From NCBI RefSeq assembly GCF_000192745.1, contig NC_015259.1, forward strand, positions 1,751,001 to 1,815,000: DNA of 64,000 nt. The letters are read 5' to 3'. A model generated the notes under the pieces. It saw nothing but the letters and a program-made list of their open reading frames with translations. It ran no database searches and had not been told where the DNA came from. The DNA comes from Polymorphum gilvum SL003B-26A1 (GTDB taxonomy: Bacteria > Pseudomonadota > Alphaproteobacteria > Rhizobiales > Stappiaceae). The position numbers and the translations under genes are program-made. This document shows positions 4,510-64,000 of the stretch, in pieces. Each line of letters begins with the position of its first letter. Position 1 is the first letter of the stretch.

Positions 4510-5972
4510 TGGCGACCTGGGTCCTGATCGTCGACAGCCTGAAGGACGTCTCCAACGCCGACACGCCGCACAAGGTGATGACGGTGCGCGACTACCTGAT
4601 GCGGCCGAAGCTGTTCACCGGCGTCAATCCGAACATCATCAACCTGTCGCGCTCCTACACCTACCAGGGCGCCGGCTACTATGCCTCGCTGCTGGCCGAG
4701 GCGCGCCAGCACCGGGTGCTGCCGAGCGTGGAGACGATGATCGAGCTGTCGCGCAAGGAGCTCTACCGGCATGCGCTGCCGGAACTCGACGACAGCCTGA
4801 ACCAGTGCCTGCGCCGGATGGGGACGACCGGCCTGCCGCTCAGCCGCATCCTGGTCTGTCTCGGCCAGACCGAGAGCCCGTTGCTGGAACCCTTCGGGCG
4901 GTTGCTGTTCGACTGGTATCGCGCGCCGATCCTGGAGGTTGCCGTCGAGCCGGGCGAGTGGTGGCGAATCCGCAAGATCAAGCCGGTGGCGATCTCCGAG
5001 CTGGAAGCGAAGGCGCGGGCCTTCCTCATGACCTCGCTGGAGCGCTACACGCACAGGCCGTGGCGAGCGCCCAAGCAGCGGGCGGTGATGAAATACTCGT
5101 TGGCGGTGCTGCAGGACCCGAAGGAGGAATTGCCGCCATCGAGCATCGCCTCGCTCAAGTACATGGCCAAGGTGGCGGCGCGCCACGGCATCGAGCTGGT
5201 GCCGATCGGCAAGGGCGACCTCGACCGGCTGGCGCAGTACGATGCACTGTTCATCCGCGAGACGACCAACATCGACAACCATACCTATCGCTTCGCACGC
5301 CGCGCCGTGCAGGAACGCATGCCGGTCATCGACGATCCGGTGTCGATGATCCGCTGCACCAACAAGGTCTATCTGGCCGAGCTGCTGGAGGCGAACGGCG
5401 TGCCGACGCCGAAGACCGTCATCCTGTCCTCGCTCAAGGAAGCGGAGGGGCTGGAGGAGCGGCTCGGATCGCCGGTGGTGCTGAAGATCCCCGACGGCTC
5501 GTTCAGCCGCGGCGTGTTCAAGGTCAGCGGCGACGAGCAAATCCGCGAGAAGCTCAAGGTCCTGTTCCAGGACAGCGACATCATCCTGGCGCAGGAATAC
5601 TGTCCGACCGAGTTCGACTGGCGCATCGGCGTGCTCGACGGCGAGCCCCTGTTCGCCGTCCAGTACCTGATGGCCAAGAAGCACTGGCAGATCGTCAAGC
5701 ACGAGGACGGCAAGAACTCGCAAGAGGGCAGCTTCCGCTCGGTGTCGCTGTCGGAGGCGCCGCCGGCGGTGGTCGAGATCGCCGTGCGCGCGGCGCGGCT
5801 GATCGGCAACGGCCTTTACGGCGTCGACCTCAAGTCGGTCGGCGACCGGGTCGTCGTCATCGAGGTCAACGACAATCCCAACCTCGACCACGGCGTCGAG
5901 GACTCGGCGGAAAAGGACGCGGTCTGGGACCAACTGATCCGCTGGTTCGTCAGGAGGCTGGAGAGCCGGTAG
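4509..5972 (+). CDS. RimK-like ATP-grasp ligase with RLAN N-terminal domain
   Basis: The 487-residue protein begins with a RimK-like ATP-grasp N-terminal (RLAN) domain (about residues 1-160). It ends with an ATP-grasp domain (about 285-475) that includes RCTNKVYLAELLEANGVPTP, SPVVLKIPDGSFSRGV and the metal-binding VIEVNDNPNLDHG. RimK relatives join glutamate or another amino acid to a carboxylate using ATP. Its start overlaps the GNAT/C39 gene by one base, so the two products very probably act together in making or trimming a peptide-like bond. The role in this organism is not visible from sequence. Confidence 0.88.
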   Translation: MATWVLIVDSLKDVSNADTPHKVMTVRDYLMRPKLFTGVNPNIINLSRSYTYQGAGYYASLLAEARQHRVLPSVETMIELSRKELYRHALPELDDSLNQCLRRMGTTGLPLSRILVCLGQTESPLLEPFGRLLFDWYRAPILEVAVEPGEWWRIRKIKPVAISELEAKARAFLMTSLERYTHRPWRAPKQRAVMKYSLAVLQDPKEELPPSSIASLKYMAKVAARHGIELVPIGKGDLDRLAQYDALFIRETTNIDNHTYRFARRAVQERMPVIDDPVSMIRCTNKVYLAELLEANGVPTPKTVILSSLKEAEGLEERLGSPVVLKIPDGSFSRGVFKVSGDEQIREKLKVLFQDSDIILAQEYCPTEFDWRIGVLDGEPLFAVQYLMAKKHWQIVKHEDGKNSQEGSFRSVSLSEAPPAVVEIAVRAARLIGNGLYGVDLKSVGDRVVVIEVNDNPNLDHGVEDSAEKDAVWDQLIRWFVRRLESR

Positions 5973-6040
5973 AAGAGCCGCAGGTCATGGGGATCCGGGC
6001 GGCGGCGCCTTTGCCATCCGGTTCGGCGCGTAGGCGACAA

Positions 6041-6126
6041 GGCCGGGATCCAGTAACCGTCGACGTCGGTGATTCAGTCTGAACGGTGCCCCGATGCCTG
6101 GATCCCAGCCCTCCCCGGCATGACAA
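6041..6126. repeat. Intergenic inverted repeat of the dispersed GGATCC type
   Basis: GGGATCCAG at 6045-6053 is answered by CTGGATCCC at 6098-6106, followed by GCATGACA. Similar gcgggatgaca text occurs at 8411-8421. This looks like one of the dispersed palindromic intergenic elements common in Rhizobiales. It fills most of the 277 bp between the ATP-grasp gene and thrS and could act as a transcript 3' structure. Confidence 0.4.
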
Positions 6127-6249
6127 GGTGCATAGAGGCGCTCCGCGCAGGAAGGTTGCCGCGGCGGTGCAAATCGCCTATGTCAGGCGCGGTTCAAACA
6201 CCCTAGACGCTTACCTGCCTCGTCTGCAGGAGTGAGCCGGAGAGACGCG

Positions 6250-8214
6250 ATGATCCATCTGACCTTTCCCGACAATTCCGTGCGCGAATACGCTCCCGGC
6301 ATCACCGGTGCCGAGATCGCCGAGGGCATTTCCAAGTCGCTGGCCAAGAAGGCCGTGGCGATGGCGCTCGACGGCGAACTGAAGGATCTCGCCGATCCGA
6401 TCGCGCGCGACGCCCGCATCGAGATCGTCACCCGTGACGACCCGCGCGCGCTCGAACTGATCCGCCACGACGCCGCCCATGTGATGGCGGAAGCCGTACA
6501 GGAACTGTGGCCGGGCACCCAGGTGACCATCGGCCCGGTGATCGAGAACGGCTTTTACTACGACTTCAAGCGCGACGAGCCGTTCACGCCCGAGGACCTG
6601 CCGGTCATCGAGAAGAAGATGCGCGAGATCATCGCCCGCGGCGCCGCCTTCACCAAGGAAGTGTGGTCGCGCGAGGAAGCGAAGAGGCATTTCCTGACCA
6701 AGGGCGAGACCTACAAGGTCGAGCTGGTCGACGCGATCCCCGAGGATCAGGAACTCAAGATCTACAAGCAGGGCACCTGGCTCGACCTGTGCCGCGGCCC
6801 GCACATGACGTCGACGCGCCAGATCGGCGACGCCTTCAAGCTGATGAAGGTGGCAGGCGCCTACTGGCGCGGCGACAGCAACAACGAGATGCTGACCCGC
6901 ATCTACGGCACCGCCTGGGCGAACGAGGCGGAACTGAAGGCCTATCTGCACATGCTGGAGGAGGCCGAGAAGCGCGACCACCGCAAGCTCGGCCGCGAGA
7001 TGGACCTGTTCCATTTCCAGGAGGAGGGCCCGGGCGTCGTGTTCTGGCATGCCAAGGGCTGGAGCCTGTTCCAGAGCCTGGTCGCCTACATGCGCCGGCG
7101 CCTGGCCGCCGACTACGACGAGGTCAACGCGCCGCAGATCCTCGACACCTCGCTGTGGGAGACCTCCGGCCACTGGGGCTGGTACAAGGAGAACATGTTC
7201 GCGGTCCAGTGCGCCGATACCGAGGCGGAGGACACGCGCCTGTTCGCGCTCAAGCCGATGAACTGCCCTGGGCACGTGCAGATCTTCAAGCACGGATTGA
7301 AGAGCTACCGCGACCTGCCGCTGCGCATGGCCGAATTCGGCGTCGTGCACCGCTACGAGCCATCGGGAGCCATGCACGGGCTGATGCGCGTGCGCGGCTT
7401 CACCCAGGACGACGCGCACATCTTCTGCACCGAGGAGCAGCTGGCGGCGGAGTGCCTGAAGATCAACGACCTGATCCTGTCGGTCTACCAGGATTTCGGC
7501 TTCGAGGAGATCGTGGTCAAGCTGTCGACCCGGCCGGAGAAGCGCGTCGGCTCCGACGCGCTATGGGATCACGCCGAAGAGGTGATGACCCGGGTTCTCA
7601 AGCAGATCGAGGACCAGTCGGGTGGGCGCATCAAGACCGGCATCCTGCCGGGCGAGGGCGCCTTCTACGGGCCGAAGTTCGAATACACCCTGCGCGACGC
7701 CATCGGCCGCGAATGGCAGTGCGGTACGACCCAGGTCGACTTCAACCTGCCGGAACGGTTCGGCGCCTTCTACGTCGACAAGGACGGCGAGAAGAAAACG
7801 CCGGTCATGGTCCACCGGGCGATCTGTGGCTCGATGGAGCGCTTCCTCGGCATCCTGATCGAGAACTTCGCCGGCCACTTCCCGCTGTGGCTGGCGCCGC
7901 GCCAGGTCGTCGTGGCGACCATCACCTCGGAGGCGGACGACTACGCCAAAGAGGTACATGCCGCGCTGACCAAGGCGGGCCTGAGGGCCGATCTCGACCT
8001 CCGGAACGAGAAGATCAACTACAAGGTCCGCGAGCACTCGCTGGCCAAGACCCCGGTGATCCTGGTCTGCGGCAAGCGCGAGGCGGAGGAACGGACTGTC
8101 AACGTCCGCCGGCTGGGCAAGGCCGACCAGGTGGCGATGGGTCTGGAGGAGGCGATCGCCGCCTTCGCCGAGGAAGCCGTGCCGCCGGACGTCAAGCGGG
8201 CGAGGGGTGCATAG
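6250..8214 (+). CDS. thrS: Threonyl-tRNA synthetase
   Basis: The 654-residue protein has the normal length and order. It has a TGS domain (residues 1-62), a second additional editing domain (about 65-235, with [12 protein letters not shown]), the class II catalytic core with the zinc-ligand segment [14 protein letters not shown], and an anticodon-binding C-terminus with LASRPQ-like [12 protein letters not shown]. It charges tRNA-Thr. ATG 6250 is preceded by CGGAGAG at proper spacing; a GTG at 6232 is in frame but less likely. A truncated tRNA-Thr(TGT) lies at 52074, though this is probably coincidence. Confidence 0.98.
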
Positions 8215-9791: not shown

Positions 9792-10385
9792 ATGTCCCCA
9801 TTCTCGCCTGCCCGCCCGGACGTCGTCGACTTCCTGCTGACGCGCCGCTCGCATCCCTCGACCACGCTGTCGGACCCCGGACCGGACGAGGCGACGCTGC
9901 ACCGGATCCTGACAGCGGCGGCGCGGGTGCCCGATCATGGCAAGCTGGCGCCATGGCGCTTCGTCGTCTATCGCGGTGCGGCGCGCGAACGCATCGGCCA
10001 ACGGCTGCTGGAAATCGCCGAGGCGCGCGAGGGACCGCTGGACGAGATGCGGCGGACGCAGGAACTGACGCGCTTCACCCGCGCGCCGGTGGTCGTCGGC
10101 GTGCTCAGCCGCGCCGCCGCCCATCCGAAGATCCCGGTGTGGGAACAGGAGCTTTCGGCCGGCGCCGCGTGCATGACGCTGCTGACCGCGGCGAGCGCGA
10201 GCGGCTTCGGCGCGCAGTGGCTGAGCGAATGGTGCTGCTTCGACGAGACGGCGAGCGCCTTCCTCGGCCGCCGCGACGGCGAGCGCTTCGCCGGCTTCAT
10301 CCATATCGGGACGCCGACACAGGCGCCGTTCGAACGGTCGCGCCCGGATCTCGACTCGGTGGCGTCGGTCTGGGAAGAGGGCTGA
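9792..10385 (+). CDS. Nitroreductase family protein (YdjA-like)
   Basis: The 197-residue protein has the flavin-dependent nitroreductase layout. RRSHPSTTLSDPGPDEATL and AARVPDHGKLAPWRFVVYRG match the N-terminal FMN-binding region, and GAACMTLLTAASASGFGAQW matches the central helix. It probably reduces nitro or quinone compounds with NAD(P)H. ATG 9792 gives the family's usual start. The next gene, a flavin reductase-like protein, begins 5 bp after its stop, so the two form a small flavoenzyme operon. Confidence 0.9.
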   Translation: MSPFSPARPDVVDFLLTRRSHPSTTLSDPGPDEATLHRILTAAARVPDHGKLAPWRFVVYRGAARERIGQRLLEIAEAREGPLDEMRRTQELTRFTRAPVVVGVLSRAAAHPKIPVWEQELSAGAACMTLLTAASASGFGAQWLSEWCCFDETASAFLGRRDGERFAGFIHIGTPTQAPFERSRPDLDSVASVWEEG

Positions 10386-10389
10386 AACG

Positions 10390-10992
10390 GTGTTCTATCA
10401 GACGGCCAGGAACGACCACGGCCTGCGCCACGATCCGTTCAAGGCGCTGGTCGCGCCGCGGCCGATCGGCTGGATCTCGACGCTCGACCGCGAGGGGCGG
10501 GCCAATCTGGCGCCCTACAGCTTCTTCAACGCGGTCTGCGACGCGCCGCCGATGGTGATGTTCTCCTCGCTCGGCTGGAAGGACAGCGTGGCCAACATCG
10601 AGGCGACCGGCGAGTTCGTCTGCAACCTGGCGAGCCTGGACCTGAAGGACGAGATGAACGCCTCGTCCGCTGCCGTGGCGCCCGGGCAATCGGAGTTCGA
10701 GCTGGCGGGTCTGGCGCCGGCGCGGTCGGTCTGCGTGCGCGCGCCGCGGGTCGCTCGGGCCAAGGCGGCGCTCGAATGCCGGCACCTGCAGACGATCCGG
10801 CTGACGGACCTCGACGGGGCGCAGACCGGATCCTGGCTGGTCATCGGCCAGGTCCTCGGCATCCACATCGCCGACGAGGTGCTGTCCGGCGGGCGAGTCG
10901 ACATCGGTCGTCTGAAGCCGCTGGCCCGCCTCGGTTACAAGGACTACTGCGCCGTCACGGAGGGTTTCGCGATGGAGCGGCCGGTCGTCTGA
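10390..10992 (+). CDS. Flavin reductase-like FMN-binding protein
   Basis: The 200-residue product begins at GTG 10390. It shows the split-barrel flavin reductase family signature: LVAPRPIGWISTLDREGRAN, then LAPYSFFNAVCDAPPMVMFS, then STGEFVCNL-like TGEFVCNLASLD. It probably binds FMN and reduces flavin for a partner enzyme. It is directly downstream of the nitroreductase. The physiological substrate is not evident. Confidence 0.9.
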   Translation: MFYQTARNDHGLRHDPFKALVAPRPIGWISTLDREGRANLAPYSFFNAVCDAPPMVMFSSLGWKDSVANIEATGEFVCNLASLDLKDEMNASSAAVAPGQSEFELAGLAPARSVCVRAPRVARAKAALECRHLQTIRLTDLDGAQTGSWLVIGQVLGIHIADEVLSGGRVDIGRLKPLARLGYKDYCAVTEGFAMERPVV

Positions 10993-11073
10993 CCGATGGC
11001 ATCGGCACTTCTTGCGAGCCCAGGCGCGCCGCGACGGGAAAAGCGGTCGCCGCATGGCAAATGTTAACGGCTG

Positions 11074-11090
11074 TTAACCATTTGTTAACC
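11074..11090 (+). promoter_or_regulatory. Putative CtrA-binding box
   Basis: The sequence TTAACCATTTGTTAACC is an exact TTAA-N7-TTAA match with the extended CC. A further TTAA lies at 11064-11067. It is 54 bp before the ATG of the lytic transglycosylase-like gene. CtrA is the alphaproteobacterial cell-cycle and motility regulator that binds this motif. Confidence 0.6.
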
Positions 11091-11143
11091 GGCTCGGGAA
11101 GAAGTTAATGTGTCGGTAACCATTCCATCGAGGAGACGGACTC

Positions 11144-12133
11144 ATGCGCGTCGCTGATTCCACCTCGATCGCGTCACGGATCGAGCAGGCATTCCAGACG
11201 GCCAGTAGCACGACGGGAACGTCGTTCGACTACCTCATGAAGACGGCCGCCCGGGAATCCTCGTTCGACACGACGGCGAAAGCGCGCACGTCGAGCGCGA
11301 CCGGCCTGTTCCAGTTTATCGAATCGACCTGGCTCGAGACCCTCAAGGAAGCCGGTCCGCGGCACGGTCTATCCAAATATGCCGACCAGATCGAGAGAAC
11401 CCGCGGCGGCACGTACCGGGTGCGGGATCCGCAGATGCGCCAGGAGATCCTCGACCTGCGCAAGGATCCGGACATCGCGTCGCTGATGGCCGGTGCGCTG
11501 ACCCAGAAGAACGGCGCGTACCTATCTCAGAAACTTGGCCGGGACGCGTCGCAGGGCGAACTCTACATCGCCCATTTCCTCGGCGCCAACGGTGCGGGCC
11601 GGCTGATCGACGCGGCGCAGACGACGCCGGACGCGCGCGCCGACCGGCTGTTTCCGGCGCAGGCGAAGGCCAACAAGGCGATCTTCTACACCACCGCGGG
11701 GGCACCGCGCAGTCTTGCGGACGTCTACGACGTGCTGGTGCGCAAGCATGACGGCATCACCATGATCGCCTCGGCACGCGGCGAAGCGCCGGCGGCGCCG
11801 GCGGCGATCGGGAACGGCCAGGACGAAGCCGATCTGCCCGATCTCGACCCGGCGCTACAGCGGGTGCTCAGCGCTTGGCAGGCGACGGAAACGGCGGCGC
11901 CGTTCGAGGCGCTGTTTCGCACCGGGGCAGGCTCGGTGTCCGGCACCCTGGGGGCGAGTTTCCTGTCGTCCTACACGGCTGCGTCCGGCGCGCAACCGTT
12001 CACACGGGGGTCGGGAGCCTCCGTGGTCGCGGCGCAACTGGCGGCCGGCGCCGAGCAGGCGCCGCTCGACCTGACCCGCTTCCTGTCCTATCGAGATCGG
12101 GAAGAACCGCGGGAACTCATGCCGCCGGTCTAG
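11144..12133 (+). CDS. Lytic transglycosylase-like (SLT domain) protein
   Basis: The 329-residue protein has an SLT-like segment near its N-terminus (YLMKTAARESSFDTTAKA), with probable catalytic Glu38 followed by SSATGLFQFIESTW. No signal peptide is visible, which is typical of flagellar or secretion-linked transglycosylases exported by other routes. The C-terminal half (from about 200) is Ala-rich and of unknown structure. It probably opens peptidoglycan for an envelope machine. A CtrA-type box lies just upstream, which suggests cell-cycle or motility control. Confidence 0.82.
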   Translation: MRVADSTSIASRIEQAFQTASSTTGTSFDYLMKTAARESSFDTTAKARTSSATGLFQFIESTWLETLKEAGPRHGLSKYADQIERTRGGTYRVRDPQMRQEILDLRKDPDIASLMAGALTQKNGAYLSQKLGRDASQGELYIAHFLGANGAGRLIDAAQTTPDARADRLFPAQAKANKAIFYTTAGAPRSLADVYDVLVRKHDGITMIASARGEAPAAPAAIGNGQDEADLPDLDPALQRVLSAWQATETAAPFEALFRTGAGSVSGTLGASFLSSYTAASGAQPFTRGSGASVVAAQLAAGAEQAPLDLTRFLSYRDREEPRELMPPV

Positions 12134-54001: not shown

Positions 54002-54244
54002 ATGTCGGCAGTTCTTACCAAGGAAGATGTCGAGGACGCGCTGCGCCGCGTGCTCGACGCCCATCACCGCAGTCCCTGGCTCGACAGCGAAGCGGCGGCG
54101 GTCTATCTCTCATCGACCCCTGCAACCCTGCGCACCTGGCGCTCGAATGGCGCGGGACCGCGCTATCATGTCGTCCAGGGCAAGGTCGTTCGCTATCACG
54201 TCGACGACCTCGACGCCTTCGTGCGCGGGGAGGACGGTCGATGA
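54002..54244 (+). CDS. Second AlpA/MerR-like DNA-binding protein (paralogue)
   Basis: The 80-residue product has LDSEAAAVYLSSTPATLRTW and RYHVVQGKVVRYHVDDLDAF, clearly related to the protein at 53425. ATG 54002 follows a purine-poor leader. It overlaps the primase gene by 4 bp, so it may regulate that operon. One of the two paralogues may be the excisionase and the other the transcription activator. Confidence 0.8.
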   Translation: MSAVLTKEDVEDALRRVLDAHHRSPWLDSEAAAVYLSSTPATLRTWRSNGAGPRYHVVQGKVVRYHVDDLDAFVRGEDGR

Positions 54245-56580
54245 GCGCGCATCACGAAAACGGAAACAGGCGCGCCAAGGGGATCGGCGCGCCTGCCGGA
54301 GCTTTGGAGAAGACCGTCGAGTTCGAGTCCGACGCTGTCGAGGATATGGCGCCGAATGCTCTGATTGTGCCGTCGAAGCACGATCCTGAAGCGTTGGACG
54401 CTCACGTCGAGGCGGGGCATGAGCTGATTGCGGTCGATGGCAAGAAGCCTGTCGCTTCGGGCTGGCGCACTGCGCTGCCTTTGGCTCGCGAACAGGCAGA
54501 GCGGCGATTGCTGGCGGGCCGAAACGTCGGGGTTCGCCTGCGCGACGTCGATCTGGTCTTGGATGTGGATCCGAGGAACTTCGCCGAGAACGACGATCCG
54601 TTGACGCGCCTTGTGCGCGACTTCGATTTGCGGGACGCGCCTTTCGTGGTGACGGGCGGCGGCGGAAAGCACCTATATTTCAGGAAGCCTGCCGAGGTCG
54701 CCGTGGTCAATGAGCTGGATGCCTATCGCGGGGTCGAGTTCAAGTCGCTCGGGCGGCAGGTCGTGGCTGCGGGATCGGTTCATCCCGAAACCGGCCGGCT
54801 CTACGCGCTCGATGACGACGTGCTGCGGATGGAGCTTTCCGAGGCTCCCGAAGCGTCGGAGAAGCTTCTGCGTGCGATCGAGAAGCTGTCCGTAGGCGCG
54901 TCAGAGAATCGGTCGGGAGAGATCACGGCCGAACAGTTGGCGCGGCTGCTCTCGAAGCTCGACGTCATGGCTTACAACGGCCGTCATGACGAATGGCTCA
55001 AGGTCATGATGGCGAGCCATCATGGAACCGCGGGCGAAGGCGTCGACGAGTTCGTGGCGTGGTCGACTTCCGATCCAGACTATGCGGGCGACGAGGCGCG
55101 TATTCGCGAGCGCTGGAACTCGCTCGATACCAGGCGCGGCGGCGTGACGCTGAAGACGTTGCTGCGGGCGCTGGTCGATGCGGGTAATGGCGCCTGGATC
55201 GAGGAGGTCTTGCGCAGCGCACCCGAGGACGACTTCGACGACGTGCCCGAGATGCCTCGCTCGATGGGCGACTTGGCGCTCGCGCGCATGAACCGAAATC
55301 ACTTCACGGTCCTGCATGGCGGCAAGTATCTGGTCGGGCGCGAGAGCAAGCATCCGACGCTCGGTCACGTCGCCGTCGACTGGTTCTCTGCGGGCGCGAT
55401 CAGCGCGCATTTCGACAGCAGGACGGTGGAGGTCGAGGACGGCAAGCAGAAGGCGCTCGGCTCGTGGTGGGTCAAGCATCCGAGGCGGCGTCAGTATGAG
55501 GGCGTCGTGTTCGATCCTTCGCCGAAGAGGACGCACACGTCGCTCTACAATCTCTGGCGCGGGTGGGCGGTCGAGCCGAAGGCTGGCGACTGGTCGCTGC
55601 TGAAGCGGTTGCTCAAGGACGTTCTGTGTCGGGGCGACGCCGAATCCTTCGATTACGTCCTGCGCTGGGCGGCGTTCATGGTGCAGAAGCCTGACATGCC
55701 TGCGGAGGTGGCGCTCGTCTTCAAGGGTTCGAAGGGCGCGGGCAAGGGAACGTTTGCGCGGGCGCTGAAGTCGCTGGCGGGGATGCACGGCAAGCAGGTG
55801 GCGCAGGCGGAGCACTTCGTCGGACGCTTCAACGAGCACCTGATGGACTGCGTTCTCCTGTTCGTCGACGAAGGCTATTGGGCGGGCGATCCGAAGGCGG
55901 CGGGCGCGCTCAAGAACCTCATCACCGAGCCTGTCCTGAGCTTCGAGCCGAAGGGGCGTCCTATCGTCTCGGGGCCGAATATGCTGCATGTCGTGATCGC
56001 GTCGAACGAGGACTGGATCGTGCCGGCTTCGGCGGACGAGAGGCGCTTCGCGGTGTTCGAGGCGGATACCGAGGCGCGCAAGCGGCTTCCCTCGGGCTTC
56101 TTCGATACCTTGAACGCACAGATGGCGAATGGCGGACTGGCGGCGATGCTGCACGATCTCCAGAACCTGGATCTTGGCGATTGGCATCCGCGCATGGCGA
56201 TCCCGAATACGCAGGCGCTGATCGAACAGAAGGTGCAGGCGTTTCGTCGGGAGCCTTTGTCGTTCTGGTGGTTCCGGACCCTTGAGGCTGGTGGCGATGG
56301 GTTGACGCTCGATGAGGACGTTTGGGCGGTTCGACAGGTTGATGTCGGGCCGAACGGCAAGGAAGAGCTGGTCGCGGAAGTGTGCGCGGTCGCGAAGGGA
56401 ATGAACCGCACGGCGCAGTTCTCGAAGAAGGCTGTGGCGCAGTTCCTGAAGTCGGTGGGCGTGGACGTGAATGCGAAGGACAGTCGTGGCGTGAGGGTGT
56501 GGCGCATGCCTGTGCTTGCCGAGGCGCGGGTCGCGTTCGAGCGCCACGTCGGCGGCGCGCTGGACTGGGACGGCGTCTGA
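54241..56580 (+). CDS. PrimPol-type primase fused to DUF5906-like helicase
   Basis: The 779-residue protein has an N-terminal PrimPol domain (about residues 50-230) with catalytic Asp108 and Asp110 in LVLDVDPRNF, GGGGKHLYFR and a GSVHPETG His. The C-terminal AAA+ part has Walker A GSKGAGKGT (496-504) and DEGYWAGDPKAAGALKNLIT, as in DUF5906 replication proteins of phages and satellites. It can replicate an excised element autonomously. It is the main replication gene here. Confidence 0.88.
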   Translation: MSAHHENGNRRAKGIGAPAGALEKTVEFESDAVEDMAPNALIVPSKHDPEALDAHVEAGHELIAVDGKKPVASGWRTALPLAREQAERRLLAGRNVGVRLRDVDLVLDVDPRNFAENDDPLTRLVRDFDLRDAPFVVTGGGGKHLYFRKPAEVAVVNELDAYRGVEFKSLGRQVVAAGSVHPETGRLYALDDDVLRMELSEAPEASEKLLRAIEKLSVGASENRSGEITAEQLARLLSKLDVMAYNGRHDEWLKVMMASHHGTAGEGVDEFVAWSTSDPDYAGDEARIRERWNSLDTRRGGVTLKTLLRALVDAGNGAWIEEVLRSAPEDDFDDVPEMPRSMGDLALARMNRNHFTVLHGGKYLVGRESKHPTLGHVAVDWFSAGAISAHFDSRTVEVEDGKQKALGSWWVKHPRRRQYEGVVFDPSPKRTHTSLYNLWRGWAVEPKAGDWSLLKRLLKDVLCRGDAESFDYVLRWAAFMVQKPDMPAEVALVFKGSKGAGKGTFARALKSLAGMHGKQVAQAEHFVGRFNEHLMDCVLLFVDEGYWAGDPKAAGALKNLITEPVLSFEPKGRPIVSGPNMLHVVIASNEDWIVPASADERRFAVFEADTEARKRLPSGFFDTLNAQMANGGLAAMLHDLQNLDLGDWHPRMAIPNTQALIEQKVQAFRREPLSFWWFRTLEAGGDGLTLDEDVWAVRQVDVGPNGKEELVAEVCAVAKGMNRTAQFSKKAVAQFLKSVGVDVNAKDSRGVRVWRMPVLAEARVAFERHVGGALDWDGV

Positions 56581-59781: not shown

Positions 59782-60000
59782 TCAGTCCTTCTGCGGGTTT
59801 AGCAGCGCTGCAGGCGTCGTCTTCAGGGCCGTGGCCAGCTTGACGATGAGCGTGAGCGATGGATTGCGTAGGCCGCGCTCGATGCCGGAGATGTACGTCC
59901 GGTCAATCTCCGTCTCCAGCGCAAGCGCCTCCTGGGACAGATCGAGTTCCTTCCTCGCTGCCTTCACGTTCTGAGCCAAGACTCTCCTGTAGTCCACCAT
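59782..60000 (-). CDS. XRE-family transcription regulator
   Basis: The 72-residue product (from ATG 60000, MVDYRRVLAQNVKAARKEL) has a complete XRE helix-turn-helix: LSQEALALETEIDRTYISGI followed by ERGLRNPSLTLIVKLATALK. A longer start at 60036 is in frame. With ATG 60000 the inverted repeat at 60020-60036 lies just upstream and could be its autoregulatory operator. It probably controls the rightward gene at 60091. Confidence 0.85.
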   Translation of the reverse strand: MVDYRRVLAQNVKAARKELDLSQEALALETEIDRTYISGIERGLRNPSLTLIVKLATALKTTPAALLNPQKD

Positions 60001-60019
60001 GACCGCATGGCGGCCAGAT

Positions 60020-60036
60020 GTGGACTGATCGTCCAC
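60020..60036. promoter_or_regulatory. Operator-like inverted repeat upstream of the XRE gene
   Basis: GTGGAC and GTCCAC are 5 bp apart (spacer TGATC). A second short inverted repeat, GTAGA...TCTAC, lies at 60073-60088 in the same divergent region. Confidence 0.5.
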
Positions 60037-60980: not shown

Positions 60981-62237
60981 TCATGCCGCTCGTTTGAGCG
61001 ACCGCGCTTTGGCCACCTTAACGTCATGCTGCCTGACGTGGGCGAGAACGGCCGACCCAATGGCTTGGGCCACTTGGATCGGCACGGCATTTCCGACTTG
61101 GGTATAGTGTTTGCTGAGATTGTCTCCGGCAAATCGAAATGAATCCGGGAATCCTTGGAGGCGGGCCGCCTCCCTGACGGAAATAGTCCTGTCTTGAGTG
61201 GGGTGTACGTAGGCGCCCCAGTGAGGATCGCACTTCGTCAGGATCGTGGAGGCGAAGCCGCCGCGCGAGAGCCTTCCATAGCGCTTCGTATGGTCCTGTA
61301 GCCGCGCCCTCTTCATGCCCGCCGGAAGAAGATCGCGTGGCACGTTCCGCCAATTGCCGCCCTCGGGCACATGGACAATGCGATCGAGGTTTACAGACGC
61401 CAGCGCGTGACAAACGTGATTGTACAACTGCGGCGCGGCGCGGCGCATCTCCCTTTGATACGTCGTCGTCGGATGACTCGACGCCCAAGGCGCGATTTGA
61501 ACACCCCCACCGTTCTCGATCTCGGGAAGGTCACCGATTGCCTGCCAGACGGTTACCGGACGTTTCGTCGCGCCCGCAGGACGCTCCTTTGGACCGCCCC
61601 ACTTGGCCAGTGCCGGCGACCAGTGCGTGGGGTTGGGCAGGAGCTCGGAGGCAGCACCAATGCGGCTCGCAACTATAAAGACCCTTCTGCGCAGTTGTGG
61701 CGTTCCAAACTCCTCCGCAGACAGGCGGCCGACGACTGCATCAAAACCCAGCTCTTTGAGGCTTGCCAGTATTTCGTCTACGACCCGACCGCCGTCGATC
61801 GACAGAATGCCGGGGACGTTTTCCATCACCAGTGTCTTGGGATTCAGGGCTCCAACCAGCGTCAGATAGTGCTCGAAAAGTCGCGCGCGCTCGTCGACTG
61901 CCGATCTGTGGTGGTTGTTGTGGCTGAAAGACTGGCAAGGCGGCCCGCCAACGAGACAGTCGAGGTCGCCTCTCTCTATGCCGCAATCCGCAAGGAGCTC
62001 ATCCGCGGCGAGCTTAGATACGGGCCCTTCGAAGAAGGAGGCCTCCGGAAAATTGAGCCTGAAAGTCTGTGCTGCATCCGGGTCGACGTCGTTCCCTGCG
62101 ACGATGCCCCACCCAGCCGACCTAAATCCGACCGCAAGGCCGCCAGCACCGGCGAATAGGTCTACGCAGCGGTGGGAGGCGGCGACGGTTGTTCTCCGTT
62201 CTGTGTACCTGATTTCGCTCAAGCTTTCTGCCCTCAT
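60981..62237 (-). CDS. C5-cytosine DNA methyltransferase
   Basis: The 418-residue enzyme has all main motifs: DLFAGAGGLAVGF (I), GGPPCQSFS with Cys101 (IV), VMENVPGIL (VI), GTPQLRRRVFIVASR (VIII), a target-recognition region (about residues 200-330), and VGNAVPIQVAQAIGSAV (X). It methylates cytosine at an unknown sequence. A divergent ParB-like gene lies 172 bp away. No restriction nuclease gene is recognised within the window. Confidence 0.95.
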   Translation of the reverse strand: MRAESLSEIRYTERRTTVAASHRCVDLFAGAGGLAVGFRSAGWGIVAGNDVDPDAAQTFRLNFPEASFFEGPVSKLAADELLADCGIERGDLDCLVGGPPCQSFSHNNHHRSAVDERARLFEHYLTLVGALNPKTLVMENVPGILSIDGGRVVDEILASLKELGFDAVVGRLSAEEFGTPQLRRRVFIVASRIGAASELLPNPTHWSPALAKWGGPKERPAGATKRPVTVWQAIGDLPEIENGGGVQIAPWASSHPTTTYQREMRRAAPQLYNHVCHALASVNLDRIVHVPEGGNWRNVPRDLLPAGMKRARLQDHTKRYGRLSRGGFASTILTKCDPHWGAYVHPTQDRTISVREAARLQGFPDSFRFAGDNLSKHYTQVGNAVPIQVAQAIGSAVLAHVRQHDVKVAKARSLKRAA

Positions 62238-62345
62238 ATGCCCCCAAAGCTCGGAGAATCAAGAACTTTTAGAGTTTACCATGATCTCAACAAAAGGTGA
62301 ACATCTGGTTAACGAGCCCGGCTCCCGCTGCGTCCACGTCAGCCC

Positions 62346-62374
62346 TTGACAACTTGATGGGCTGCCATCATCTT
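62346..62374 (+). promoter_or_regulatory. Putative promoter for the ParB-like/SNF2 genes
   Basis: TTGACA at 62346-62351 and CATCTT at 62369-62374 are 17 bp apart, 35 bp before ATG 62410. The -35 is perfect and the -10 is weak, so activation or repression is possible. Confidence 0.5.
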
Positions 62375-62409
62375 GCGTGAAGTTGCCTGAGCAAGAAAGG
62401 AAAGATCAG

Positions 62410-63657
62410 ATGGCTAATGGTGAAGCGCCCACGCTGGAGGCTCTTCCGCACAAAGCGGAGCGGGCCCTCTTTGAGAAGATCGGTAACACGGAGTGGGAAC
62501 TCCGAGAGCTCAGGCTCGATGTTCACAACGACGTAGCCCTTTGGGCCGACAATCCGCGCCTTCAGACTTCCCTGATGGAGGGGTTCTCGTCCGAGGCGGA
62601 CCTTGAGGAGGCGCTCCGCCTGTCTCCGGGGTATGACGGGCTGCGCAAGTCGATCCAGGAGATCGGCCAGATGCAGTCGATCTACGTTCAGCGCACGGCG
62701 ACTGGGAAGTATCTGGTGCTTGAGGGTGCCACCCGCGTCACCATCCTCCGGGAGTTGGATCGCAAGTTCACTAGCGGCAAGAACCAGGATGTCTTTCGCT
62801 ACGTGCAGGCCAAGGTACTTCCGCAGAATTTCGGCGAAAAGGATGTCGCGATCTTGCTCGCGGGCATTCACGTGCGCGGCTCCGGCGTCCGTGACTGGGG
62901 CCGCTACATCGAGGCCAAGTTCATCTACGAGACCGTGGTCGGGCGTCCCGGACATCCGCCACTGATGAACCAGGCCACGCTGGCCGAGAATATGGGCAAA
63001 TCGGAGTCGTGGGTGGCGCGGCTGAAGAGCGCCTATGAGTTCGCGCTCAAGTTCGTCGAGTACGTGGATGACGACCCGAATCCGCGGAAGCTCGCGGCCG
63101 AGAAGTTCAGCACCCTGGAGGAGATCAGCAAGGCGCGTGTCATCGGACCGCAGCTCCGGGATTTTGACAATAAGGCCTACGACGACCTCCGGCGGGACGT
63201 CTTCGACATGGTCCGTAATGACGTCTTCAAGGAGTATCGGGACGCCCGTTTCCTGAAGGAGTTCTACGACGACCCGGATGCGTGGGCCCAGCTCATGTCC
63301 GGGGAGAAACACATCGCCAACAAACTTGCCCAGCAGACTCAAGACAAGAGCAGCCATCCGAAGGCGAAGATCGCCGCCATGCCTCAACTCGTCAGGCGAG
63401 CGCTCGACCGCGGCGAGGATGGCTTCGACGACGAGGACGTCACGAGCCTCCAACAGACGATCGACCTCATTGAGGACAAGGTGCACGATGGGGTTCACCC
63501 CTACCGGCTCGCACTCAAGAAGGCGACCCGGACGTTGAACAAGGCGAGCAGGGCCGATGTAGTGGATCTCCAGCCCTCTGACATCGAGGAGTTCCGCGAG
63601 GCGTACGCTTACTTTGACGGTCTGGTGGGGCAGCACTTCCAGGCCCGGGGGGCGTGA
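62410..63657 (+). CDS. ParB/Srx-fold protein linked to SNF2 helicase
   Basis: The 415-residue protein has a ParB-like N-terminal domain. Its IGQMQSIYVQRTATGKYLVL and EGATRVTILRELDRKF segments (about residues 85-120) match the ParB/Srx nucleotide-binding fold, with EGATR in place of EGHRR. A helix-turn-helix near residue 190 (QATLAENMGKSESWVARLKS) follows. The C-terminal half is helical. ATG 62410 follows GAAAGGAAAG. Its stop is 2 bp before the SNF2 start, so the two products are probably partners. Confidence 0.8.
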   Translation: MANGEAPTLEALPHKAERALFEKIGNTEWELRELRLDVHNDVALWADNPRLQTSLMEGFSSEADLEEALRLSPGYDGLRKSIQEIGQMQSIYVQRTATGKYLVLEGATRVTILRELDRKFTSGKNQDVFRYVQAKVLPQNFGEKDVAILLAGIHVRGSGVRDWGRYIEAKFIYETVVGRPGHPPLMNQATLAENMGKSESWVARLKSAYEFALKFVEYVDDDPNPRKLAAEKFSTLEEISKARVIGPQLRDFDNKAYDDLRRDVFDMVRNDVFKEYRDARFLKEFYDDPDAWAQLMSGEKHIANKLAQQTQDKSSHPKAKIAAMPQLVRRALDRGEDGFDDEDVTSLQQTIDLIEDKVHDGVHPYRLALKKATRTLNKASRADVVDLQPSDIEEFREAYAYFDGLVGQHFQARGA

Positions 63658-63658
63658 C

Positions 63659-64000
63659 TTGGGCTTCGAGCTTCTCCAGCATCAGCATGAGGGCGTAGCG
63701 TTTCTCACTGGGCGCGGCGTCGGTCTCCTGGCGTTCGAGCAGGGCCTCGGCAAGACCTTCGTCGCAATCGAAGCATTTCGTAGACTACTCGACGCGGGGC
63801 AGGCCGACAGGTTGCTGGTGATCTGCCCCAATTCCCTGAAGCGCAATTGGGTGGCTGAGTTCACCAAGTTCGCGCCTTCAGTGTCGGTGGACGTTGCGGA
63901 GGGGGTGCCGAAAAAGAGACGCGCTACGTTCAGGGAATCGCGCGCAAGGGTGATCATCACCAGCTACGAGACCGCCCGCTCCGAAACAACCGCGCTGCTC
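63659..64000 (+). CDS. SNF2-family helicase/translocase, N-terminal part (cut by window edge)
   Basis: The 114 visible residues read LGFELLQHQHEGVAFLTGRG, then VGLLAFEQGLGKTFVAIEAF (motif I, GLGKT) and LLVICPNSLKRNWVAEFTKF (motif Ia region), followed by RVIITSYETARS. These are SNF2-type ATPase signatures. The start is probably TTG 63659, after the run GGGGGG. The rest of the protein, including the second RecA-like domain, lies beyond the window. Confidence 0.85.
   Translation, partial: MGFELLQHQHEGVAFLTGRGVGLLAFEQGLGKTFVAIEAFRRLLDAGQADRLLVICPNSLKRNWVAEFTKFAPSVSVDVAEGVPKKRRATFRESRARVIITSYETARSETTALL

Follow-up and report, generated by a model that had tools for sequence, protein, structure and literature searches.

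A conserved ParB-SNF2-methyltransferase cassette on integrative elements: a possible variant of restriction-modification

Restriction-modification (R-M) normally ties the recognition of a DNA site to one nuclease. In the ATP-dependent CglI and NgoAVII systems, cleavage needs ATP hydrolysis by a separate ATPase; in the parts of that account used here, the nuclease is of the PLD family and the ATPase of the DEAD family, with no ParB named (PMC4267653). DndB, a protein of the ParB superfamily, is described as a transcriptional regulator in the modification-linked Dnd systems (PMC10853773), and ParB-like domains and SNF2 helicases are named in conflict systems generally (excerpts of PMC3710099, PMC9519451, PMC12458937, PMC10853773, PMC12839542, PMC5512222, PMC12907096 and PMC4267653, taken as a set). 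Here we consider a cassette at the right edge of a 64,000-nucleotide stretch of Polymorphum gilvum SL003B-26A1 (contig NC_015259.1, positions 1,751,001 to 1,815,000; hereafter the window), in which a C5-cytosine DNA methyltransferase gene stands divergent to a ParB-like gene that is followed by an SNF2 gene. It looks like an undescribed variant of R-M, and our searches of the open-licence PubMed Central literature returned no account of this gene set that we recognised.

A preliminary description of the window had proposed these three neighbours as a gene group, and their order is conserved in other genomes, which places the group beyond chance. A single scan for the ParB-like protein, covering 84,980 genome species, yielded 16 loci (L027-L042; 17 with the window), a lower bound because the scan was seeded by two short peptide patterns; the contigs of L031, L038 and L040 are also G061, G587 and G471, and each was counted once. 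SNF2 lies immediately 3' of the ParB-like gene in 15 of the 16, so the neighbours agree and do not differ from genome to genome, and in the loci examined SNF2 does not belong to an ordinary replication operon. Nor is the methyltransferase always solitary: a related enzyme adjoins the ParB-like gene in 12 of the 16 loci, and in L036, L041 and L042 it is 0.6-2.6 kb off, separated by one or two genes (a NotI gene in L036, a GIY-YIG-like frame in L041, NotI and another gene in L042). Identity of the ParB-like protein across the loci ranges from 44 to 86%. The organisms in the locus records are mostly Rhodobacterales and Hyphomicrobiales; L041 and L042 come from metagenome bins that carry the labels Thermoanaerobaculia and Bacillota, on which, for a single contig, we place no reliance.

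The reverse search agrees with this picture, as SNF2 at E<=1e-70 occurs in two of 385 genomes of the class (the window's own, G000, and G587), in both with the ParB-like gene and the methyltransferase. Divergence is also correlated among the three proteins in 15 loci including the window (L041 was left out because its contig ends inside SNF2): ParB-SNF2 distances gave r 0.87, with none of 2000 permutations as high, methyltransferase-SNF2 distances r 0.59 (10 of 2000) and methyltransferase-ParB distances r 0.51 (23 of 2000), correlations to which shared descent contributes. The ParB-SNF2 cassette is rare. At E<=0.001 the ParB-like protein was matched in 3 of 297 genomes of the order (one weakly) and 7 of 385 of the class (three strongly), and its profile matched 10 of 398 genomes of the phylum, with only the window's own match strong and full-length. 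Among 50,697 phage records there was no match at E<=1e-5, and in PLSDB just two plasmids were matched.

Much of the preliminary description of the window holds up (Table 1). The methyltransferase matches PF00145 and scores above the cut-off of TIGR00675, and the divergent ParB-like gene does begin 172 bp away, counting from the ATG at 62410; its longest open reading frame is 62377-63657 (+), and this ATG is the likely start because the conserved promoter palindrome occupies 62382-62395. The SNF2 gene stood as described, with its distance from the ParB-like stop corrected from two bases to one (probable start TTG 63659, end 65059 beyond the window edge). That no restriction nuclease is visible is true inside the window and is an effect of its edge: extending the sequence to the right, as had been suggested, revealed a Vsr gene after the helicase and then a GIY-YIG-like gene. 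Past the tRNA-Thr gene that follows come chromosomal genes, by eye including elongation factor Tu and ribosomal proteins, and the cassette therefore lies at the end of the island.

Table 1. Features of the locus. The window is G000:C2:1751001-1815000; its right flank was read via L002, whose coordinates equal window positions minus 60000.
Feature	Position	Strand	Basis and remarks
Prim-Pol/PriCT_2/DUF5906 primase-helicase of the island	54241-56580		
C5-cytosine DNA methyltransferase	60981-62237	-	418 aa; PF00145 E 4.1e-62; TIGR00675 186.6 bits (cut-off 100.65)
Putative ParB-operon promoter	62346-62376	+	TTGACA 62346-62351, CATCTT 62369-62374, extra CTTGC half-site 62372-62376; by eye
Putative operator palindrome CTTGC-N4-GCAAG	62382-62395	none	GTTGCCTGAGCAAG in the window (one mismatch)
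ParB/KorB-like protein (Srx/CTPase-type N domain and helix-turn-helix)	62410-63657	+	predicted fold
Short SNF2 translocase	63659-64000 (window part); whole L002:3659-5059 = G000:C2:1814659-1816059	+	PF00176 E 5e-35; PF00271 6.8e-13
Vsr-type endonuclease	L002:5062-5496 (65062-65496 in continued window numbering)	+	TIGR00632 148.9 bits (cut-off 97.85); aligned to 1cw0
208-aa protein with membrane-type segment	L002:5493-6119	+	PADLOC '1TM' effector E 1.6e-4; 94% identical copy in L032
283-aa GIY-YIG-like protein	L002:6121-6972 (66121-66972)	+	PF13455 6.4e-4, PF10544 0.0075, both under Pfam cut-off
tRNA-Thr(TGT)	L002:7000-7074	-	beyond GIY-YIG-like gene

Plasmid relatives of the methyltransferase point to type II systems of the NotI type. 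It matched 782 plasmid records; in the six that we opened (two selected as NotI matches and four as methyltransferase matches) the enzymes are 42-50% identical to it and a NotI-family gene adjoins in every case, with a Vsr gene beside one of the pairs (L046). NotI-family genes also occur in cassette loci L036 and L042. By sequence identity, it is a relative of the NotI-type methyltransferases, so the whole group is better read as an R-M variant. Where it departs from these systems is in its company: none of the six window cassette proteins matches PF12183, a ParB-like and an SNF2 protein are added, and elsewhere other nucleases take the place. No ParB or SNF2 gene is annotated in the six plasmid regions, for which the PLSDB annotation is incomplete, and neither of the two plasmids matched by the ParB-like protein is among them.

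In C5 enzymes, the target-recognition region lies between motifs VIII and IX. Over part of this stretch, residues 272-344, identity to the window enzyme reaches 71-89% in 12 complete cassette loci, against 58% in L036, 64% in L042 and 55-67% for five NotI enzymes of plasmids; each time this equals or exceeds the identity of the catalytic part. To call the region the best-conserved part of the protein holds for these residues only, and not for the target-recognition region as a whole. A common methylation target is no more than plausible, with GCGGCCGC as a candidate site. The methyltransferase additionally matches PADLOC DrmMII (E 3.5e-65), more weakly than the generic type II models (1.3e-112).

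The nuclease genes vary between loci. Besides Vsr, they exceed the Pfam cut-off in 4 of the 17 loci: HNH_2 in L031 (6.4e-11), Mrr_cat in L038 (6.9e-15) and NotI (PF12183) in L036 (5.7e-97) and L042 (1.2e-12). Below the cut-off, we place a 283-aa GIY-YIG-like family in the window, L028, L029, L032 and L039 (the window copy alone was Pfam-scanned) and a 190-aa GIY-YIG-like frame in L041 (PF01541 0.0015), whilst a family of 234-254 aa in L028, L029 and L034 is HNH-like by eye, its L029 and L034 copies being without a Pfam match. Counting the four above the cut-off, the six GIY-YIG-like ones below it and the HNH-like gene of L034, nuclease-type genes other than Vsr are present in 11 of the 17 loci, and in four (L036, L038, L041 and L042) they stand beside the methyltransferase as a restriction (R) gene would. 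The structure model of the GIY-YIG-like protein (pLDDT 49) was dropped as a means of identification, a profile search of solved structures giving weak, unrelated rows only; a single-sequence search of solved structures with the NotI protein of L036 gave no match at E<=0.001. Separately, L035 carries a gene with a GmrSD_N domain (5629-7296; PF03235 1.3e-27) one gene away from its methyltransferase. The cassette recalls CglI and NgoAVII in having methyltransferase, nuclease and ATPase as separate proteins, and differs from them in that the motor is SNF2 (PF00176) and the nuclease varies; a Pfam scan found no PLD match among the six window cassette proteins.

Vsr proteins are known companions of C5 methyltransferases. 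Among the cassette loci, the Vsr gene directly follows SNF2 in 9 of the 17 loci (the window, L027, L028, L029, L031, L032, L034, L035 and L039) and adjoins the methyltransferase in L036, and the window copy scores above the TIGR00632 subfamily cut-off. All nine SNF2-operon copies carry an arginine at the position of E. coli Vsr H64, where the NotI-linked copies of L036 and L046 have histidine. A published account of Caulobacter VsrA lists E25, D51, H64, H69 and D97 as active-site residues and describes working Vsr enzymes with aspartate at H64 (PMC12907096); arginine therefore does not exclude Vsr activity, and a change of role in the arginine-type proteins is possible. Three oddities may be recorded here. 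The Vsr frame of L027 (12656-13084), a metagenome bin, lacks the usual VWECE ending, as if frameshifted; the host genome has a second Vsr-like gene, 51% identical, at G000:C2:2768080-2768481; and a further locus on an IMG/VR contig, L012, whose Vsr equals that of L034 by eye, was kept outside the 17, as its SNF2 is broken by a phage-tail frame (5608-7146) in place of the N-terminus, through either an assembly chimera or an insertion.

By sequence, the ParB-like protein is weakly marked (Pfam KorB E 0.013, below the cut-off; PADLOC PDC-M38A 4.2e-7, a name absent from the open-licence PubMed Central literature searched). An AlphaFold2 model built on 17 sequences (mean pLDDT 80) is more telling, with ParB, KorB and Noc structures as its top matches: 7bnr at Z 11.8 (96 residues, 2.1 A), 5k5d at Z 11.4 (211 residues, 4.1 A) and the KorB structure 8qa9 at Foldseek E 7.7e-5. 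The longer matches cover the N domain and the helix-turn-helix, the arrangement of the ParB/KorB CTPase family, and scarcely reach the part after residue 308. On this predicted structure, the assignment to the ParB/KorB/Noc fold is firm. Typical ParB proteins carry the CTP motifs GERR and ENxQR; at these places the window protein reads EGATR and HVRGSG, with EG(A/N)xR and HVRGxGVRxW conserved among its homologues. These variant motifs, the pairing with SNF2 and the lack of a ParA-type protein among the six cassette proteins set it apart from the KorB, ParB and Noc CTPases. The preliminary description, which had invoked ParB-fold proteins as nucleotide-hydrolysing enzymes or nucleases, was thus right about the fold; nothing in our analysis points to a nuclease role, though one is conceivable, and the protein looks like a DNA-binding protein of ParB/KorB type with an operator-like palindrome at its promoter.

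This palindrome, CTTGC-N4-GCAAG, was sought, allowing one mismatch, over the 110 bases that precede the ParB domain in the 14 loci with a divergent methyltransferase, leaving out L041 (contig ending inside SNF2) and L040 and L042 (no divergent methyltransferase). It is present in 13 of the 14, with two mismatches in L031; counting L041, which is divergent and has its nearest copy 436 bases off, the figure is 13 of 15. At the ParB promoter position of L040 and L042 it is absent. No other of 9216 five-base-arm palindromes with spacers of 0-8 was as frequent, and the other 29 orders of its arm letters (2000 draws) reached at most one locus. Arm positions average 1.72 bits against about 0.5 on either side, a figure that favours the palindrome because the rows were anchored on it; and as the loci are related, we see conservation here and not 13 independent events. 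Several of the 14 loci in the alignment show, by eye, a promoter layout resembling that of the window. The ParB-like protein would be the candidate binder, because it is the sole one of the six cassette proteins with a recognisable helix-turn-helix. An XRE regulator in the window (59782-60036) was rejected as a conserved controller, its only other matches (L029, L031) lying about 10 kb from the methyltransferase.

The partner of the ParB-like protein is an SNF2 motor, as in DISARM, Dpd (7-deazaguanine) and Zorya. All four motifs searched for are present in 15 of 16 copies, and three of the four in the truncated copy of L041; phrog_62 is matched at 2.6e-120. Whilst DpdE and ZorD are the best PADLOC matches of the window protein, it falls far below the NCBIfam cut-offs for DrmD (74.4 of 610 bits), DpdE (48.6 of 500) and ZorD (94.3 of 1500). 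Of the partners in those systems, the best 25 PADLOC matches for each cassette protein include DrmMII, for the methyltransferase, and no other, with neither DrmA, DrmB or DrmC of DISARM nor DpdA of Dpd among them.

The location in an integrative island that had been put forward for the window is mirrored elsewhere, with the cassette at the tRNA or integrase ends of elements. A tRNA gene lies 5-557 bases past the last cassette gene in 9 of the 17 loci (the window, L027, L030, L033, L034, L036, L037, L038 and L040), with six different anticodons (Leu-TAA four times) and the operon always running towards the tRNA; L028, L029, L031 and L032 have an integrase or integrase-domain gene instead. Genes beyond the tRNA were discarded as partners, since the tRNA separates them from the cassette: a DUF4365 gene in L038, those for 210 aa in L033 and 298 aa in L037, and a metabolic gene in L036 (12946-14985). 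On the methyltransferase side, the window, L034, L036 and L038 carry Prim-Pol/DUF5906/VapE-type primase genes. We found no duplicate of the tRNA-Thr 3' end in the window (<=3 mismatches) and no second copy in the genome (<=2 mismatches), so integration at tRNA-Thr is argued from position and from the tRNA neighbours of other loci. An IMG/VR predicted provirus of 49,771 bases, UViG_2512047034 (L008), is identical over the ParB gene and ends exactly at the GIY-YIG-like gene; assuming collinearity, it would span window 17202-64000 and on to L002:6972. As for L040, its solitary ParB homologue (9935-11221; 49% identical) sits amid housekeeping genes, 235 bases from tRNA-Leu, and is possibly the remnant of a cassette.

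Exchange has also taken place within the cassette. Compared with L032, the window cassette shows 51-71% DNA identity as far as L002 position 3980 and 85-96% beyond (L002:3981-6980). This jump falls inside SNF2, whose later portion moved as a block with Vsr and the genes for the 208-aa and GIY-YIG-like proteins. In L031, the methyltransferase is adjoined by PD-T7-1 (5615-7141; PADLOC E 5.6e-142), an anti-phage gene from the Vassallo 2022 selection (PMC9519451). A PD-T7-1-type gene 38.7% identical to this one (L010:3486-4955) stands beside another ParB-SNF2 locus, seen on two Rhizobiales plasmids (L009:6743-16189 and L010:3486-13455), in which the companions of SNF2 are ParB-like genes (two or three of them), a radical SAM protein, an HSP90-like ATPase and a protein resembling DndB (DGQHR). 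This is a separate gene group of modification-like character that has the ParB-SNF2 pair in common with the cassette. The likeness of our cassette to Dnd lies in having a ParB-superfamily protein within a modification-linked system; the difference is that none of its six proteins matches DndB, PF14072 being matched in the distant L009, with a 57% identical gene in L010.

How, then, might these proteins work together? On the strength of what computation shows, namely which genes are present, the order in which they are conserved, the predicted fold, the palindrome kept at the promoter, the replacement of nucleases and the position at tRNA genes or integrases, we tentatively favour, at somewhat less than even confidence, an R-M-type defence cassette carried by integrative elements, its operon held in check by its own ParB-like protein, with the ParB-SNF2 pair and an exchangeable nuclease acting on unmarked DNA. 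The separate ATPase of CglI and NgoAVII and the regulator DndB are precedents for it, and the correlated divergence, the PD-T7-1 gene next to the L031 cassette and the well-kept methyltransferase residues 272-344 also count in its favour. The methyltransferase would mark both host and element DNA at a site that is perhaps NotI-like; the divergent operon would supply the ParB/KorB-fold protein and the short SNF2 motor, commonly joined by a Vsr-type endonuclease and, at many loci, by a nuclease that can be exchanged. By binding the palindrome of its own promoter, the ParB-fold protein would keep the operon low, such that restriction would come only after methylation. In contact with the SNF2 motor, and perhaps with a nucleotide, it would then form a DNA-bound partnership letting the associated nuclease cleave DNA that lacks the mark, possibly that of phages or plasmids. 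The chemistry of the ParB-like protein and the defence role of the cassette are what we infer.

Several observations weigh against this proposal. The strongest point against plain restriction is that in L030, L033 and L037 the triad is present but the genes scanned include no Vsr and no recognised nuclease (a DUF3800 gene faces the L033 methyltransferase tail to tail; in L030 only 0.9 kb of contig remain past the methyltransferase). In L027 and L035 Vsr is the only cassette nuclease, and extending the Pfam scan to ten further flanking genes brought up no nuclease near L027, L030, L033 or L037. A further nuclease exceeds the Pfam cut-off in only the four loci named above, and the GIY-YIG-like model is poor. 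Methyltransferase residues 193-271, also between motifs VIII and IX, are its least conserved (30-67% in 14 complete loci), and residues 193-344, taken together, are better conserved than the catalytic part in just 4 of the 14 complete loci besides the window, and slightly. It is the predicted fold, and not the motif sequence, that suggests nucleotide binding by the ParB-like protein. L040 has the ParB-like gene alone; the jump of identity inside SNF2 means that SNF2 and the later genes are exchangeable without ParB; and NotI-type plasmid pairs without annotated ParB-SNF2 indicate that restriction as such can do without the module.

A bolder version, which we regard as possible though rather doubtful, would make a ParB-type nucleotide-gated DNA clamp and the SNF2 motor a fixed core that reads methylation and licenses cutting, into which the nuclease (GIY-YIG, HNH, Mrr, NotI or the diverged Vsr alone) is plugged, and which would also serve the L009/L010 system with its radical SAM, DndB-like and HSP90-like ATPase proteins. 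A clamp loaded at many host palindrome sites was rejected as a simple reading, since the host genome shows no enrichment of the palindrome (98 sites with <=1 mismatch versus 192 for the reversed pattern). The same counts, with the palindrome lying at the ParB promoter, would suit a ParB-fold protein that is only a transcriptional regulator in the manner of KorB or DndB, SNF2 being an accessory such as a remodeller of DNA or RNA polymerase, with methyltransferase and nuclease alone restricting where present. KorB is indeed among the nearest folds, and NotI-type pairs manage without annotated ParB-SNF2. Yet why would 15 of 16 loci retain SNF2, and why does it come with two to three ParB-like genes in the distant L009 and L010? 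A pure regulator leaves both unexplained, and we consider this account rather unlikely.

Protection of the element itself, which we think unlikely, would have the methyltransferase (with Vsr repairing deaminated 5-methylcytosine) shield it from restriction in new hosts, and ParB and SNF2 serve its replication, stability or excision. The three triad loci without Vsr or recognised nuclease would fit, as would the place of the cassette at the tRNA/integrase end of elements, four of them with primase genes, and the known companionship of Vsr with C5 methyltransferases; the nuclease-type genes of 11 of the 17 loci (four above the Pfam cut-off), four of them placed like an R gene, and the want of a partition ATPase among the six window cassette proteins speak against it. 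That these genes were merely inherited together at an integration hotspot and share no function is highly improbable: the nucleases differ, Vsr is missing from some loci, L040 keeps only ParB and blocks recombine, but ParB-SNF2 order and orientation are the same in 15 of 16 loci, at 44-86% ParB identity and beside different tRNA genes, with correlated divergence and a conserved palindrome.

Returning to the R-M-type cassette that we favour, the fact that its methyltransferase and ParB-SNF2 core stay when the nuclease is replaced suggests that recognition may be separable from cutting. The ParB fold, known from DNA partition, would thereby gain a possible place in immunity, and a compact unit of three to six genes, together with its predicted operator, offers the means to put this to the test.

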